Shown here in pieces: positions 16,113 to 23,449 of a stretch of 64,000 nt of DNA. Both the position numbers and the translations under genes were made by a program. The DNA comes from Methanospirillum hungatei JF-1 (GTDB lineage: Archaea > Halobacteriota > Methanomicrobia > Methanomicrobiales > Methanospirillaceae): contig NC_007796.1 of assembly GCF_000013445.1 (NCBI RefSeq), positions 62,001 to 126,000 of the forward strand, written 5' to 3'. The notes beneath the pieces were generated by a model. That model ran no database searches and was not told the DNA's origin. It saw only the letters and a list, made by a program, of their open reading frames with translations. Within the stretch, counting starts at the first letter, position 1; every line of letters begins with the position of its first letter.

Positions 16113-16571
16113 ATGATAATGCCGGAATACAGGTGGTATCTAAAAACGGTAAAAACACCGATTTTAATCTATCTGCTTCTCATAATGATCCTTTGTTTGT
16201 CCGGTTGTGTCCGGCCTGAAGCCGGATTTACCGTTCGTCCGGAATCATTCAGGCAACCACCTGATGTGTATGCAAATGAAAGTACATCAGATGTAATTCT
16301 GTCAGTTGGAGATACCATGATGGTTTCATACCCCTGGACACCGGAGGATGGCAGGTACTGGCGTGTCTCAGTAACTGAGGGATTATTTGTCACTGGCGAC
16401 CGGTACACTCCCTTTCCACCCGGTATTCCAGTTGAAGTCTCCGGAACCCGGGAATGGATGGTGTGTGCAACCTCACCCGGTATTCAGACTTTTGTCGGAT
16501 ATCTGCGACCGAGAAATTTGTCATGGAATCTGGAAACTATCCAGCATAAAATTACCGTAACGGTTCTGTAA
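16113..16571 (+). CDS. Lipoprotein with chagasin-like (I42 inhibitor) domain
   Basis: A 152-residue protein with a hydrophobic N-terminus ending in a lipobox-like LSGC, so probably lipid-anchored outside the membrane. The C-terminal part resembles the chagasin/inhibitor I42 fold: a tryptophan-containing loop (YWRVSVTEGL), a conserved G.REWMVCATSPGIQTF segment and a final YLRP loop. Known members inhibit papain-like cysteine proteases. The first loop (NPTTGF in canonical members) is not conserved, so inhibition is uncertain. It is divergent from the PAC2 gene and 14 bases before the RsbU-like gene. Confidence 0.6.
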   Translation: MIMPEYRWYLKTVKTPILIYLLLIMILCLSGCVRPEAGFTVRPESFRQPPDVYANESTSDVILSVGDTMMVSYPWTPEDGRYWRVSVTEGLFVTGDRYTPFPPGIPVEVSGTREWMVCATSPGIQTFVGYLRPRNLSWNLETIQHKITVTVL

Positions 16572-16585
16572 GAAAATATGATCTT

Positions 16586-18706
16586 ATGAAAAGAATGAGA
16601 ATTGGAGTCGCTGGAAAATTATTGCTGATAATGGTTCTGCTCACCAGTCTCATCTTCATCATTATCGGCGGTATATCATGGATTGTGATGGGGAATCTGG
16701 GAGCCTATGCAACACAGTCCAGTCTTGCTCTTGGGGAACAAGCCATAGGTGAGAGCACAACCGCTCTGGAAGAGGATGCAGAGATCTATCTTCTCCGGCT
16801 TGTAAAAGACCAGGCAGAGATCACCGATATGGTCTTTGAACGGATCATTTCCGAGATGAATGTCCTCAATGACTATGGAAAAGTGATGATCAAAGAAAAT
16901 AATGTGACTCCTGTTACGTGGTATACCCGTGATATAAAGCCCGCAAAACCAGGTGAGACGGGTATCATCCATCTTTCTCCCGGAGTGACAGCAGAACACG
17001 TTCTGGATGAAATCATGGCACTGAGTTCATTCCAGCCTGTTTTCAATACCCTTTTCCATGCAGATAACCGGCTCACTGCATTGTATGTTACCTCTTCTTC
17101 AGGGATCACCTTCATCTTCCCCTGGACTCCACGAGTTGATCCTACCTTTGAACCACGATCCAGAAGCTGGTTTTTGGAAGCGGTGAATAGTTCGCAATTC
17201 GTATGGTCTGATCCGTATGTTGATGTCTTAGGAAATGGTCTTACCATCACCTGTTCGAAGGCAGTTCACAGTCCTGATAAAACCCGGACATGGGTCATTG
17301 GTTCTGATATTACTATTGAAACGATTAACTACCGGATTATCACCACCCAGCTTGGTGAAGACGGATATGCATTTCTGATAAATCAGCGGGGGGATATTCT
17401 CTCCAGACCTGGTCTGAGCGCTGGAGAGACCAGGTGGGATAAGTCATACGAGACAGAGAATCTTCTTCAGAGTACGAATGAAGATCTCAGAAAGGTTGCA
17501 GAAGAGATGACCAGGGGTCTTTCCGGTGTCAGTCGGTGCAGATTTGCAGAAGGTGACAAGTATATCGCCTATGCACCGGTAAAAAGTGTCGGATGGAGCA
17601 TTGGCCTTGTCGTACCGGTAGAACAGGTAATCGGACCTGCTCATATCACCGGTTCAGTCATCCGCCTGGCAAGTGAAGAAACCCATTCACACATCACCGA
17701 ACAGATGTCCTTTTTGCAAAAAATCCTTATTACAAGTTTCTTTCTCCTTTTCATCGGAGTGACGGGTATTGCAATATTCTTCTCTAAAATCATTACCGGT
17801 CCTGTTATGATACTAAGTGAAGGGGCCAGACGAATCGGGAATGGGGATCTGCAGACTCCGGTTGAGATACATACTGGTGATGAGTTTGAGGAGCTGGCCG
17901 GCGCCTTTAACCGGATGACAAATGACCTTCGCAATTATATTGTAGAACTTCGGAGAACCACCGCAGAGAAGGAGCGATTTACGCGTGAACTTGAGATTGC
18001 CCAGGGAATTCAGCAGAGTTTCCTTCCAGACAACGTTCCTGATATTCCTGGTATGGAACTTGCGGTATTTTCAAGCCCGGCTCTTGAAGTTGGAGGAGAT
18101 TTTTATGACTTTATCCCGGTTGGTGATGATCAGTGGGGGCTGGTTATTGCCGATGTGAGTGGGAAAGGTGTTCCAGCAGCACTGTTCATGGCACTCTCCC
18201 GAACCCTAATCCGGGTAAGTGCTACCTGGAAAAGCTCTCCTGCAAGTGCAATCACTGAGGCAAACACGCTTATCTGTCGTGACTCCAAGGCCAGTATGTT
18301 TGTAACGCTCTTTTACCTGGTTATCGACTCAAAGAAACGGCAGATCACCTATGTTAATGCCGGCCATAATCCTCCCCTGATGTTGACCGGAGGAGACCAG
18401 AGTGATATAACCCTTTTAAAGGCTGAAGGGATCGCCCTTGGAATCATCGATGATATTGACCTTGCTTCGGTAACGGTGGATTTGAAGAAGGGAGATATGG
18501 TTGCGCTTTATACTGATGGTATTACCGAAGCGATGAACAAGGATGGAGAGGAGTATGGAATAGAACGGTTTACTGAGGTTTTAATGCAGAACCGTGACCT
18601 TGATCTTTCCGCACTCATTAATGCAATAAAGACATCCATCAAAGAGTTTACAAAAGATGCTCCCCAGTCAGATGACATCACTCTTATCCTCTTCAGGGCA
18701 GTCTGA
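16586..18706 (+). CDS. Membrane sensor with HAMP and SpoIIE/RsbU-type phosphatase domain
   Basis: 706 residues. A transmembrane helix (about 12-34) is followed by a large extracellular sensor resembling a Cache domain, a second helix at about 381-402, a HAMP linker, a short coiled coil and a PP2C-type serine phosphatase domain. The phosphatase motifs include GGDFYDF (about 502-508), VIADVSGKGVPAALFMA, NAGHNPP, and ALYTDGITEA. RsbU-like enzymes dephosphorylate a STAS-domain antagonist; a STAS gene and a kinase-like gene lie 2 kb downstream. It would couple an external ligand to that switch. Archaea lack sigma factors, so the output is unknown. Confidence 0.9.
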   Translation: MKRMRIGVAGKLLLIMVLLTSLIFIIIGGISWIVMGNLGAYATQSSLALGEQAIGESTTALEEDAEIYLLRLVKDQAEITDMVFERIISEMNVLNDYGKVMIKENNVTPVTWYTRDIKPAKPGETGIIHLSPGVTAEHVLDEIMALSSFQPVFNTLFHADNRLTALYVTSSSGITFIFPWTPRVDPTFEPRSRSWFLEAVNSSQFVWSDPYVDVLGNGLTITCSKAVHSPDKTRTWVIGSDITIETINYRIITTQLGEDGYAFLINQRGDILSRPGLSAGETRWDKSYETENLLQSTNEDLRKVAEEMTRGLSGVSRCRFAEGDKYIAYAPVKSVGWSIGLVVPVEQVIGPAHITGSVIRLASEETHSHITEQMSFLQKILITSFFLLFIGVTGIAIFFSKIITGPVMILSEGARRIGNGDLQTPVEIHTGDEFEELAGAFNRMTNDLRNYIVELRRTTAEKERFTRELEIAQGIQQSFLPDNVPDIPGMELAVFSSPALEVGGDFYDFIPVGDDQWGLVIADVSGKGVPAALFMALSRTLIRVSATWKSSPASAITEANTLICRDSKASMFVTLFYLVIDSKKRQITYVNAGHNPPLMLTGGDQSDITLLKAEGIALGIIDDIDLASVTVDLKKGDMVALYTDGITEAMNKDGEEYGIERFTEVLMQNRDLDLSALINAIKTSIKEFTKDAPQSDDITLILFRAV

Positions 18707-18710
18707 TCCT

Positions 18711-20429
18711 TTATTTTTCCATCGGAAATTGCAGGATGATCTCTTCATCACCAGGCTTTGGTAATTTCACAATTTTCCCCCCGGCATACCTGACGGTTCG
18801 GAGAAGGGCCCGTGAAAGAGGAAGCTCGGGTTTCCAGTCTACACCGACTGGCGTGATTGCGATATGAACGAAATCTTTTTTTGGAAAAATCTCAACATTG
18901 ACACTATCTGCACCATACAATCGGTAATAATCGGACAATGCACTATAGATATCTGATAACCGGTCGACATCGGCATATATGAATTGAACAGTATCCGGAG
19001 TTTTGATAGAGAACCTGATCTCTTTGCAGTTTTGGTACTCTGCAAGTCTGCTCAGCAATATATTTCGAAAACTGGTGACATCATCGATAGAATGCAACAG
19101 GTCATCATCACTGAATGCACAAGAGTTCTGTTTCAATATAAGATCATTCAGGACGTGTACCGGATCACATTTTTTGAGTCTCGCAGTCGGAATCACTCCC
19201 TGCATGGCAGATAAAAGATCTGAGAATAGTCTGGTAGTCCGACGAACCAGGGAGGGATCGATGAGGTGCTCAAGAGTATGTCCTGTAAGATATGACCTGA
19301 TCTTTTGAAGTGTCTGCAAAGATTTCAGGATAACCTGTAGCTCGGAGAGTTTTTTCTCTTGAAAATCTTTGTAATAGGTTGTAAATCCATCAAGGGTTTT
19401 TTCAATATCATCGACAGGTATGAGACGTTCCAGGTCTTCTGCGGTTTCAAATTCTTCAAGTTCTTCAAGATGGTACCGAAGGAGCATGATTCTTCCGGCA
19501 ACAATAGGAAAGAGTCGGTATGCCTCATCCATAAGGTCCATAGCATGTCTCATGGAAAGATTTACCCGCCCTTTGTCAAAAAGGGCAACATCTGGTAAGG
19601 TTTCATGAGATTGCTTAAGATTGTGAAGTATTTTTCGAAACTCCGACACGCTGAATGCATTACCATGTCCCGGACAGATCACTGAAATTTCATAATTCTC
19701 AAGTATCCATTCCATCCTTTGGAGCGTTTTAGAAAATTCAATGGTGTCCCACCCCAGAATCCCTGCAACTCCGGGATTGAGTGCAAAGGGGATATCCCCG
19801 ACATGCAAAAGATTTCCAATACGGATGGCCATACTGTCATATGAATGCCCCGGTACTGCCCAGAAAAACAGTGATTGCCCGTCAGGAAAGCGAAGCTCTT
19901 CAGAAAGCAGGAGGATTTCGTCCGAAATGTGTATGTTATTGGGAATAAGCTGAAATCCCGGTAAAATTTCCGAAATTTCCAGATCCTGGTTTTTATTATG
20001 GAAAAGCGGGAGTTCTATCTGAAGGGGCGGTATTGGTAAATCCACCAGATAGGCCTGGGTATATCGCTGGTCTCCTGTTCTGATAATATCTGCACCAGAT
20101 GCATGACAGACAAATACCGGCTTTCCAAATTTTTCAAATCGCCGGTCTACCAATCCCTCGTAGATGTGATCGTAGTGCGCATGCCCGAAAATGATGATGA
20201 GTGGTTTTTCTCTGTCATATGAACATGTTACTAGAGCATCACATGCAGTGTCCATAACTTCCTGCGACGCACCCGTATCTAAAAAGACAATATTATCCCC
20301 TATAGTGAGTAGATACACATTCGAGCTGGTCACGTCAGGTTTTCGAATACAGGGAAAGATTCTGGCATGAGCCGTACCAGGAACATCCTGCCATCGTTCA
20401 TTCTGCAGAATAGCCTGTTTCGTTTTCAC
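18711..20429 (-). CDS. Metallo-beta-lactamase-fold protein with C-terminal kinase-like region
   Basis: 572 residues. The N-terminal 270 form a metallo-beta-lactamase fold: the zinc motif GHAHYDH near residues 102-108, a later histidine in WAVPGHSYDSMAIR, and VICPGHGN. The following helical region and the last 150 residues look like a histidine-kinase dimerisation/ATPase module: ADVDRLSDIYSAL resembles the N-box helix and PLSRALLRTVRYAGGKIV the G2 region. The N-box asparagine and glycine-rich loops are missing, so catalysis is doubtful. It is divergently transcribed from the STAS gene and tail to tail with the phosphatase gene, so it may belong to the same switch. Confidence 0.75.
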   Translation of the reverse strand: MKTKQAILQNERWQDVPGTAHARIFPCIRKPDVTSSNVYLLTIGDNIVFLDTGASQEVMDTACDALVTCSYDREKPLIIIFGHAHYDHIYEGLVDRRFEKFGKPVFVCHASGADIIRTGDQRYTQAYLVDLPIPPLQIELPLFHNKNQDLEISEILPGFQLIPNNIHISDEILLLSEELRFPDGQSLFFWAVPGHSYDSMAIRIGNLLHVGDIPFALNPGVAGILGWDTIEFSKTLQRMEWILENYEISVICPGHGNAFSVSEFRKILHNLKQSHETLPDVALFDKGRVNLSMRHAMDLMDEAYRLFPIVAGRIMLLRYHLEELEEFETAEDLERLIPVDDIEKTLDGFTTYYKDFQEKKLSELQVILKSLQTLQKIRSYLTGHTLEHLIDPSLVRRTTRLFSDLLSAMQGVIPTARLKKCDPVHVLNDLILKQNSCAFSDDDLLHSIDDVTSFRNILLSRLAEYQNCKEIRFSIKTPDTVQFIYADVDRLSDIYSALSDYYRLYGADSVNVEIFPKKDFVHIAITPVGVDWKPELPLSRALLRTVRYAGGKIVKLPKPGDEEIILQFPMEK

Positions 20430-20519
20430 GCATTGATCTCGCTTTCACAAATCATAAATTCCTAGCAGAGAACTGATTATACTAGGACTTGTGTCATTAT
20501 ACATGGAGAAGATAGGATA

Positions 20520-20870
20520 ATGGAAGATCATCTTTCAATACAGGAACGTGAAATCTCCGGAATTACTATTCTGGATATATCCGGAAGAATAGATGCTGCA
20601 ACTTCATCACAAATTGAAGGAGAGCTGGGAAAGAAGATTGATACCGGGGTTACGACTCTTATCCTTAACATGAAGGATTTGAGTTATATCAGCAGTTCTG
20701 GGCTTCGGGTAATACTCGCAGCATTGAAGCGGGTCAAGGCCGAAGAAGGGACCATCGCACTCGCTACTCTACAGCCTGGTCCCGGAGAAGTTTTTAAAAT
20801 GACAGGATTTGACCGGCTCTTTCCGATAAGTCCATCGGTTGAACAGGCAGTTGAAAAACTCAAATCGTAA
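20520..20870 (+). CDS. STAS-domain protein, RsbV/SpoIIAA-like antagonist
   Basis: 116 residues, a single STAS domain. The motif LSYISSSGLRVIL (about residues 54-66) carries the serine equivalent to the phosphorylated Ser of SpoIIAA (here Ser59, first of SSG). Such proteins bind the HATPase partner when unphosphorylated. The gene is followed after 23 bases by the HATPase gene, giving the RsbV-RsbW order seen in bacteria. Confidence 0.9.
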   Translation: MEDHLSIQEREISGITILDISGRIDAATSSQIEGELGKKIDTGVTTLILNMKDLSYISSSGLRVILAALKRVKAEEGTIALATLQPGPGEVFKMTGFDRLFPISPSVEQAVEKLKS

Positions 20871-20893
20871 TTTTATGTCTCGTTCGAATATGA

Positions 20894-21316
20894 ATGGCAG
20901 TATATCAGATTAACCTTGAAGATGCGATCACTGCAGTAACACAACTTGCAGAATTCCTCTCTGACATAATTGAAAAGGAGAGCATTTCTTTTGAAGTTGA
21001 AAATGCAATGCAACTTTCTGCAGAAGAAGCAGTTGTGAACATCATCACCCACGGGTATAATGGGAAACCTGGAATGATCGAAGTGACATGTGAAATTGCA
21101 GATGGTTTTGTTACACTCACGATCTGCGATGAGGCACCGCATTTTAATCCGTTAACTATTCCGCCTGCAGATGTTGATGCAGGAATTGATGAGCGGCGGA
21201 TTGGCGGTCTTGGGGTTCACCTGATCCGCTCACTCATGGATAAAGTCAGATACAAGCAGACTGATTCCGGTAATTGTCTTATCATGCAAAAGGCATTATC
21301 ATCCTCTCTTTCCTGA
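20894..21316 (+). CDS. RsbW-like serine kinase (GHKL ATPase)
   Basis: 140 residues of the HATPase_c_2 type. The N-box reads EEAVVNIITHGY with the Mg-binding asparagine; the G1 region is ICDEAPHFNP; the G2 region is RIGGLGVHLIRSLMD. In bacteria such proteins phosphorylate the STAS partner and bind a sigma factor. Here no sigma factor exists, so the bound target must be something else. The adjacent STAS gene and the nearby phosphatase complete a partner-switching set. Confidence 0.88.
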   Translation: MAVYQINLEDAITAVTQLAEFLSDIIEKESISFEVENAMQLSAEEAVVNIITHGYNGKPGMIEVTCEIADGFVTLTICDEAPHFNPLTIPPADVDAGIDERRIGGLGVHLIRSLMDKVRYKQTDSGNCLIMQKALSSSLS

Positions 21317-21362: not shown

Positions 21363-22169
21363 ATGACCCAATCCTATGTTCATGGATATTCTGAACGTGA
21401 AGCTGAACGACTGTTTGATCAGGCTGAAACGCTGACCTGCCTGATTCACCATGACTCAATTTTTCCTCCGGGCAGTAGGATACTTGAAGCCGGATGCGGG
21501 ACCGGGGCACAGACCTGTATTCTTGCGGGTAAAAACCCCCGTTGTGAGTTCGTTTCTGTTGATATTTCTCACACATCACTTGCAATTGCAGAAAAGCGGG
21601 TGAGTGCTGCAGGTCTTTCGAACGTTACCCTGCAGCATGCAGATATTCTAGGAGATGAACTCCCATTTGGGATGTTTGACCACGCGGTTTTTTGCTTTGT
21701 TCTTGAACATATTCGAAAACCTGAAGAAGCAATCCGCCGTGTCATGAAGATGGTAAAACCAGGTGGCACGGTTACTGCTATTGAAGGGGATCATGGATCG
21801 GTTTGTTTTCATCCGGAGAGTGAAAAGGCTCTCATGGCCATCCGGTGTCAGGTCCTTCTTCAGGAACGAGCCGGGGGTGATGCCTGTATTGGAAGAAAAC
21901 TCTATCCGCTGCTGGTTTCATCAGGGCTCACCGATGTCATGGTTTCACCACGGCTGGTCTATGCTGATGGGGGGAGACCTGACTTAGCCACGGGATTTAC
22001 TGAGAAGACCTTCATAGCCATGATCCAGGGGATCAGAGATCCAGCAATTGCGGCAGGTCTGATGTCAGCAAAAGACTTTGATGAAGGGATATCGGATCTG
22101 ATTCGATCTGCCCAAAAAGACGGGACATTTAGTTATACATTCTATAAAGGACGTGGAATTAATCCCTGA
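21363..22169 (+). CDS. SAM-dependent class I methyltransferase
   Basis: 268 residues. Motif I is ILEAGCGTGAQT, followed by the acidic end of strand 2 (EFVSVDIS), motif II around HADIL and the later FVLEHIRKPEEAIRRV and MKMVKPGGTVTAIE typical of small-molecule or UbiE-like methyltransferases. The substrate is unknown. It lies 46 bases after the RsbW-like gene and may be cotranscribed. Confidence 0.82.
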   Translation: MTQSYVHGYSEREAERLFDQAETLTCLIHHDSIFPPGSRILEAGCGTGAQTCILAGKNPRCEFVSVDISHTSLAIAEKRVSAAGLSNVTLQHADILGDELPFGMFDHAVFCFVLEHIRKPEEAIRRVMKMVKPGGTVTAIEGDHGSVCFHPESEKALMAIRCQVLLQERAGGDACIGRKLYPLLVSSGLTDVMVSPRLVYADGGRPDLATGFTEKTFIAMIQGIRDPAIAAGLMSAKDFDEGISDLIRSAQKDGTFSYTFYKGRGINP

Positions 22170-22322: not shown

Positions 22323-22826
22323 ATGGATCGGATTGTAACGTTCCTTCTCTTACTGGTTTCAGCACTCCTGCTGGTACCGGGGTGTATTGCAGAAGAACAG
22401 GTAGCACCTGAAGCAACTGAAGTTGTTCCAGAAGTCCCGGTTGTGGAAGAAGCAACCGAAGAAGTCGTTGAAGAAGTTGCAGGCGAAGTTCAGGCTGAGG
22501 AAGTAACTGAAGTCGTCGCTGAAGAACTTCCGGTGTACAATGTCACCGCTGATGTAAACAGCACTGAAATCAACATGACTGTTGGTCAGATTGCAATGAT
22601 CGAACTTCCGGTAACTACTGACTTTGAGTGGAATGTAACTGCATCAGAGGGTCTTACTATTATCAAGGACATCCATGTCGATGCAGTTGACGAAACTGTC
22701 GGCGCTTTCCACCAGTGGTTTGTTGAAGCTGTTGCAGCTGGAGAACAGTCTTTCTCTGGTGTAGAAAAGAAGGCAGATTCAGAAGAGACTGGCAGCGAAT
22801 ACACTCTTAAAATCCTCGTAGAGTAA
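22323..22826 (+). CDS. Chagasin-like lipoprotein, paralogue 1
   Basis: 167 residues. The signal peptide ends in the lipobox LLVPGC. It is followed by a low-complexity linker of Val, Glu, Ala and Pro (about 24-72) and a C-terminal I42-inhibitor-like domain with WNVTASEGLTI and HQWFVEAVAAGEQSF. The first loop reads PVTTDFEW, whereas paralogue 2 has the canonical NPTTGFSW, so the inhibitory loop has changed. It is probably anchored outside the membrane with the linker spanning the cell wall space. It is tandem with paralogue 2; the first 22 residues are nearly identical. Confidence 0.75.
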   Translation: MDRIVTFLLLLVSALLLVPGCIAEEQVAPEATEVVPEVPVVEEATEEVVEEVAGEVQAEEVTEVVAEELPVYNVTADVNSTEINMTVGQIAMIELPVTTDFEWNVTASEGLTIIKDIHVDAVDETVGAFHQWFVEAVAAGEQSFSGVEKKADSEETGSEYTLKILVE

Positions 22827-22928: not shown

Positions 22929-22948
22929 GTATGATAACATGATTGATC

Positions 22949-23449
22949 ATGGATCGGATTGTAACGTTCCTTCTCGTACTGGTTCTAGCGCTCCTACTAG
23001 TACCGGGGTGTATTGCTGAAGAACTGGCTGCACCTCTTGCATCTGATGTTGCTGGAGAAGTCCCGGTTGCAGAAGTAACAACTGAAAAAGTTGTTGAAGA
23101 TACCACCGAAGAGACTACCGAAGAAGTCTTCGCATACAATATCTCTGCTGACGTAAATACGACTGAACTGAATATGACCCTGAACCAGGTAGCAATGATT
23201 CAGCTTTCTGAAAATCCTACTACCGGCTTTTCATGGAATGTAACTCTTTCTGATGGCCTTACCCTTCTGAATGACAGATATGTTCAGGATCCCACACCAG
23301 AGGGGATGGTTGGTGTTGGTGGTATCCATGAGTGGTACGTTGAAGCTGTTGCTGCAGGTAACCAGACTTTTGATGGTATCTATAAACAGCCATGGGAAGA
23401 AACGGTGGGCAATGAAACGACCTATTCCCTGGCGATTCTCGTAGAGTAA
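22949..23449 (+). CDS. Chagasin-like lipoprotein, paralogue 2
   Basis: 166 residues from ATG 22949, chosen because the paralogue begins with the same MDRIVTFLL; an in-frame TTG lies two codons upstream. It has the lipobox LLVPGC, an acidic Thr/Glu linker, then an I42 domain with the complete first loop NPTTGFSW and the conserved GGIHEWYVEAVAAG. Chagasin-family members inhibit papain-type proteases; the intact loop makes this copy the better inhibitor candidate of the three in this window. No matching protease gene is nearby. Confidence 0.8.
   Translation: MDRIVTFLLVLVLALLLVPGCIAEELAAPLASDVAGEVPVAEVTTEKVVEDTTEETTEEVFAYNISADVNTTELNMTLNQVAMIQLSENPTTGFSWNVTLSDGLTLLNDRYVQDPTPEGMVGVGGIHEWYVEAVAAGNQTFDGIYKQPWEETVGNETTYSLAILVE

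Follow-up and report, generated by a model that had tools for sequence, protein, structure and literature searches.

A partner-switching set of Methanospirillum hungatei JF-1 and its linked metallo-beta-lactamase/pseudo-histidine kinase protein, a candidate non-sigma output

The genome of Methanospirillum hungatei JF-1, an archaeon of the order Methanomicrobiales, is a single contig of 3,544,738 bp, and the stretch of DNA analysed here (64,000 nucleotides, bases 62001-126000; hereafter the window) holds four genes at positions 16586-21316, not only the three named in the first-pass annotation; a divergent gene on the minus strand had been overlooked. The leftmost gene (16586-18706, plus strand) encodes a membrane sensor phosphatase of 706 residues with dCache_1 (residues 150-340; Pfam, 4.9e-18), HAMP (398-449; 3.9e-12), and SpoIIE/PP2C (514-704; 7.9e-53) domains. 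The overlooked gene (18711-20429, minus strand, GTG start) encodes a two-domain protein of 572 residues: a metallo-beta-lactamase (MBL) domain at about residues 10-280 (19590-20400), recognized by Pfam Lactamase_B, alignment, and fold matches, and a module at residues 282-572 (18714-19586) with DHp-like helices and a CA/GHKL fold, which is a pseudo-histidine kinase according to the predicted fold. Back on the plus strand lie an RsbV/SpoIIAA-type STAS protein of 116 residues (20520-20870; Pfam STAS, 1.4e-23), with the codon of Ser59 at 20694-20696, and an RsbW-type GHKL serine kinase of 140 residues (20894-21316; Pfam HATPase_c_2, 2.3e-30) that carries E45/N49 in the N-box, D79 in G1, and GGLG at residues 104-107 in G2. 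The divergent MBL and STAS genes are separated by 90 bp (20430-20519), a possible control region common to both. The kinase gene is followed by that of a class I SAM-dependent methyltransferase (Pfam; 268 residues, 21363-22169, plus strand), which is probably outside the switch core. On either side of the switch there are lipoprotein-like genes of the chagasin type (Inhibitor_I42), three in total (16113-16571, 22323-22826, and 22943-23449, all plus strand), and related ones are found in other Methanospirillum genomes.

That the phosphatase, the STAS protein, and the kinase make up an RsbU/RsbV/RsbW-like set, as the first-pass annotation had proposed, is confirmed at the level of sequence by the Pfam domains and by catalytic motifs that are intact and conserved across alignments of 64-83 relatives. 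The metal-binding catalytic aspartates of SpoIIE are 100% conserved in 64 relatives; in 76 relatives of the kinase, E45/N49 are kept at 98%, D79 at 100%, and the GGLG of G2 at 98-100% (G105/G107 100%). The phosphorylatable serine noted earlier on the STAS protein is residue 59, present in 83 of 83 STAS relatives. The STAS protein exceeds the NCBIfam ant_ant_sig cut-off. The closest solved structures to the JF-1 kinase are SpoIIAB and RsbW; however, it stays below the NCBIfam RsbW/SpoIIAB equivalog cut-offs (59.3 versus 145 bits for RsbW, 54.6 versus 155, and 37.9 versus 135 for SpoIIAB). Against one clear RsbW-type kinase, the JF-1 genome has four phosphatases of the SpoIIE type and as many STAS proteins; the other HATPase_c_2 matches are far weaker and mostly within long histidine-kinase-type frames. 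A single kinase thus seems to be the point at which several phosphatases and STAS proteins meet. A profile search of the genome with Sigma70_r2 gave no match, while the control search was positive in ten bacterial genomes; the idea of a hidden sigma factor was rejected on this ground. JF-1 being without sigma factors, the target of its kinase must be of another kind, as the first-pass annotation had argued.

The basic finding, a switch of this type in Methanomicrobiales, is already known, so the set is not newly noticed here. In the sections of Anderson et al. (2009; PMC2686161) drawn on for this work, an "anti-sigma/anti-anti-sigma/serine phosphatase" set, the same system as the JF-1 locus, is described in three Methanomicrobiales including M. 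hungatei; the same sections stress the absence of sigma factors, conclude that sequence does not allow the targets to be identified, and state that SpoII-type proteins are absent outside Methanomicrobiales. Two genome papers restate this account. With respect to those sections, the additions made here are the MBL protein, the gene fusions, and the occurrence in Methanothrix; Methanothrix carries the set, and the restriction to Methanomicrobiales given in 2009 no longer holds.

The N-terminal half of the 572-residue protein has the HxHxDH, H, D, H ligands and the fold of a metallo-beta-lactamase. The ligands H83, H85, D87, H88, H195, D212, and H255 are invariant in an alignment of 31 relatives. 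When the full-length model was used for the fold search, the MBL half alone (residues 9-282) was reported, with glyoxalase-II-like and other MBL structures as matches (best Z 20.1, GloB, 7l0b) and with PqsE at Z 18.3-18.5, the latter over a longer aligned stretch that includes part of the helical region. The domain is thus like GloB and PqsE, but unlike either of them it is fused to a DHp-CA module. For this module (residues 282-572) Pfam has no match even at E 1 and no NCBIfam model matches; its nature was therefore sought by predicting its fold and comparing profiles. Modelled alone (pLDDT 84), the module is predicted to begin with a helical bundle and to continue as a GHKL fold of the CA type, and in the comparison with the PDB, histidine kinases fill all of the best 50 rows. 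For the CA part, the leading rows have Z 12-13 with 117-125 residues superposed at 2.5-3.0 Å, the top one having Z 13.4 and an rmsd of 2.6 over 123 residues. In profile comparison, the CA part matches methanogen histidine kinases at 33-82% probability, whereas none of 35 unrelated clusters exceeds 1%, and the module matches RsbW-type kinases at 12% only. Reading the alignment of the module by eye, we found neither the N-box Asn nor DxGxG nor GxGL; the first helix likewise lacks a conserved His. The architecture is that of degenerate histidine kinases, and without the ATP-binding boxes no kinase activity is expected. A DHp-CA fold that lacks these boxes as well as the phospho-acceptor His leads us to read residues 282-572 as a pseudo-histidine kinase. 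The same predicted module is found, together with 5TMR_LYT repeats, in a membrane protein of about 1160 residues; in two Methanospirillum genomes (L132:2875-6378 and L133:13888-17346) its gene lies at a distance of 10-13 kb from that of the kinase.

A survey of gene neighbourhoods in other methanogens, suggested by the first-pass annotation, indicated that the switch recurs and that the MBL-pseudokinase gene is its linked partner in several gene orders. The kinase is present in 140 of the 232 genomes of the class; together with the conserved motifs given above, this excludes the possibility, raised earlier, that the set is confined to the one strain and has lost its motifs. The MBL-pseudokinase protein is found in 117 of the 232, of which 112 also have the kinase and the remaining five are metagenome-assembled genomes (MAGs) of 67-89% completeness; by genus, it occurs in 22 genera, all among the 29 that bear the kinase. 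The co-occurrence has p = 4e-32 by genome and 1e-5 by genus, figures that are indicative only, as the genomes are related and independence is overstated. The kinase was also found in Methanothrix, a second lineage: four genomes of f22, a different family of this phylum, carry it. There, the MBL-pseudokinase gene adjoins genes that may unite SpoIIE and kinase domains in one protein of 1000-1400 residues, next to two STAS genes. Such fusions of the phosphatase with its opposing RsbW-type kinase were seen at five loci of Methanothrix/Methanosaeta and an uncultured archaeon (L186, L192, L195, L200, and L219).

To count adjacency without bias, a scan of named genomes with the MBL-pseudokinase protein as sole query was used, and the loci picked around the kinase (L047-L126) were left out. 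Among the 56 archaeal genes so found, 36 have a STAS gene within 400 bp, four of them fused to it, and 46 have a switch gene within 8 kb, many contigs being short. Please note that gene calls outside the window come from our own selection of open reading frames with HMM priority, on which the 400-bp and 8-kb counts depend. The chance of STAS adjacency is roughly 0.4% per gene if six STAS genes per 2.5 Mb are assumed. The MBL gene is divergent from STAS in Methanospirillum. In Methanoregula it follows STAS in the same direction, in relatives of Methanolinea it precedes STAS, and in some genomes of families f4 and f5 it lies downstream of the kinase and S435 (a second common STAS protein, see below), so that its proximity to the switch outlasts rearrangement. 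In three Methanospirillum genomes (G200, G204, and G207) the locus is reduced to MBL, STAS, and kinase genes, the phosphatase and the methyltransferase being gone from it. Among the switch components STAS, rather than the kinase or the phosphatase, lies closest to the MBL protein. The fusions in Methanolinea-type MAGs join just this pair, MBL-pseudokinase and STAS, into single proteins and keep the phosphorylatable serine. The linkage of the MBL-pseudokinase with the switch is well supported, and the protein very probably belongs to the switch system.

By analogy with RsbW, RsbV, and RsbU and from what is known of these families, the RsbW-type kinase would phosphorylate the STAS protein at Ser59, and the dCache-HAMP-SpoIIE phosphatase, together with the three SpoIIE phosphatases elsewhere in the genome, would dephosphorylate it on sensing their signals. 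The STAS protein would then pair with either of two partners: the GHKL kinase, which is active, or the degenerate GHKL domain of the MBL protein. The closeness of STAS to the MBL gene and the fusions of these two make it the simplest reading that STAS docks on the pseudokinase; in one phosphorylation state, this docking may gate the metal-dependent hydrolase, which would then be the output where bacteria have a sigma factor. We infer in this way the direction of signalling, the STAS-pseudokinase binding, and the enzymatic activity of the MBL domain together with its having a substrate. A non-sigma partner switch in which STAS acts on the MBL-pseudokinase protein as output has, in our estimate, an even chance of being right. 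In its favour are the co-occurrence, the STAS adjacency, the fusions, the Methanothrix loci, the reduced Methanospirillum loci, the invariant ligands, and the histidine-kinase fold; against it are the kinase-bearing genomes without the MBL protein, the scarcity of switch genes near it in bacteria, the module behind 5TMR_LYT, and the kinship of the genomes. The fuller version, namely that a dead histidine kinase serves as the STAS docking site in competition with the live RsbW-type kinase, that serine phosphorylation thereby gates the fused metallo-hydrolase, and that both Methanomicrobiales and Methanothrix have this enzyme-output, non-sigma switch and some bacteria have relatives of the MBL-pseudokinase, is put forward more tentatively, at somewhat less than even chance. 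If it is true, a dead histidine kinase couples a serine-phosphorylation switch to a metal enzyme. It has been remarked since 2009 that these methanogens have proteins of the anti-sigma and anti-anti-sigma kind without any sigma factor; a conserved, sometimes fused partner narrows the question of their target to a few assays of binding and enzyme activity.

The MBL-pseudokinase protein may instead be an input, comparable to the bacterial stressosome proteins and RsbT upstream of RsbU/RsbW: the MBL domain would bind or process a ligand, the pseudokinase would relay this to STAS or to the kinase, and the true output would be elsewhere. We consider this the less likely direction, though one to be taken seriously, as histidine-kinase-like modules usually transmit and the same module behind 5TMR_LYT membrane repeats in some Methanospirillum genomes is sensor-like, with 5TMR_LYT also found N-terminal to a SpoIIE phosphatase domain in the JF-1 genome (L129). 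The invariant MBL metal site, on the other hand, is as for an enzyme (metal-binding sensors exist too), and the closest partner of the MBL gene is STAS and not the phosphatase. A different difficulty for the MBL protein as output is its absence from 28 of the 140 kinase-bearing genomes (Methanocorpusculum and several genera of family f6); it is therefore no universal target and other outputs must exist. The same 28 genomes would suit a switch whose kinase controls a transcription factor, or an enzyme, encoded elsewhere, with the MBL gene as no more than a metabolic neighbour. The target can be unlinked in bacterial sigma switches, so there is precedent for this; yet the linkage through several gene orders, the nested distribution, and the STAS fusions speak against it and make it improbable.

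Two further proteins were weighed as targets. S435, which combines STAS with about 320 residues of well conserved fold, is encoded in JF-1 at about 3.539 Mb (L127:8799-10112, minus strand) beside a second HAMP-SpoIIE phosphatase. It is present in 101 of the 232 class genomes, 96 of them with the kinase, it directly adjoins the kinase in Methanoregula and family f5, and its serine is conserved in all 24 aligned rows. However, it is not at the switch locus in JF-1, and its C-terminal part has no recognizable domain (none in Pfam, a weak DUF305 match among PDB sequences); as the output it is very unlikely, but it is a candidate for one of the other outputs mentioned above and could act alongside the MBL protein instead of competing with it. 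The adjacent methyltransferase, named as a possible target by the first-pass annotation, lies directly 3' of the kinase gene in five Methanospirillum genomes and flanks the kinase in these only, being away from the locus in G200, G204, and G207, where MBL, STAS, and kinase are kept, and in nearly all other genera. These neighbourhoods rule it out as a conserved partner and leave it a poor candidate with very little chance of being the target. The earlier interpretation is thus partly supported: the switch set and the non-sigma target stand, while the methyltransferase does not, and the MBL gene had been missed.

The JF-1 set resembles RsbU/RsbV/RsbW and SpoIIE/SpoIIAA/SpoIIAB of B. subtilis in its sensor PP2C phosphatase, its STAS protein with a phosphorylatable serine, and its GHKL serine kinase, and differs from them in having no sigma factor and in having the MBL-pseudokinase as an extra partner. 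Non-sigma partner switches are also known, among them SiaABC and HsbRAD of Pseudomonas. What these and Vibrio SypE/SypA have in common with the JF-1 switch is a protein, of STAS type or analogous to it, whose state depends, in JF-1 by analogy, on Ser/Thr phosphorylation, and an output that need not be a sigma factor; what sets JF-1 apart is its candidate output, an MBL hydrolase joined to a pseudo-histidine kinase. For SypE/SypA, the target of SypA is given as unknown (PMC8256260). In the literature searched, we found no description of an MBL hydrolase with a pseudo-histidine kinase as the output of a switch, and no paper joining partner switching, metallo-beta-lactamase, and STAS.

The two-domain MBL-pseudokinase protein was also found in ten bacterial records, two of which have a switch gene near: STAS adjoins it in Candidimonas humi DSM 25336, an isolate, and an RsbW-type kinase adjoins it in a Lentisphaerae MAG. 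No switch gene lies close to it in the Smithella, Syntrophus, and Desulfoluna MAGs, and some of the bacterial MAG contigs may be mis-binned. At three loci of Smithella-type bacteria (L205, L208, and L212) the gene is directly 3' of a 746-residue gene, which in L205, the one scanned, is an aldehyde ferredoxin oxidoreductase, possibly a hint of a metabolic role. A WD40-caspase-like protein is encoded just upstream of it in the Desulfoluna MAG (L199:4242-7520). In Methanocorpusculum-type genomes (g25, genus inferred; L106-L109), the kinase domain forms the C-terminal end of a protein some 680 residues long, for which Pfam gave a Cthe_2159 carbohydrate-binding match in L109, the one locus scanned.
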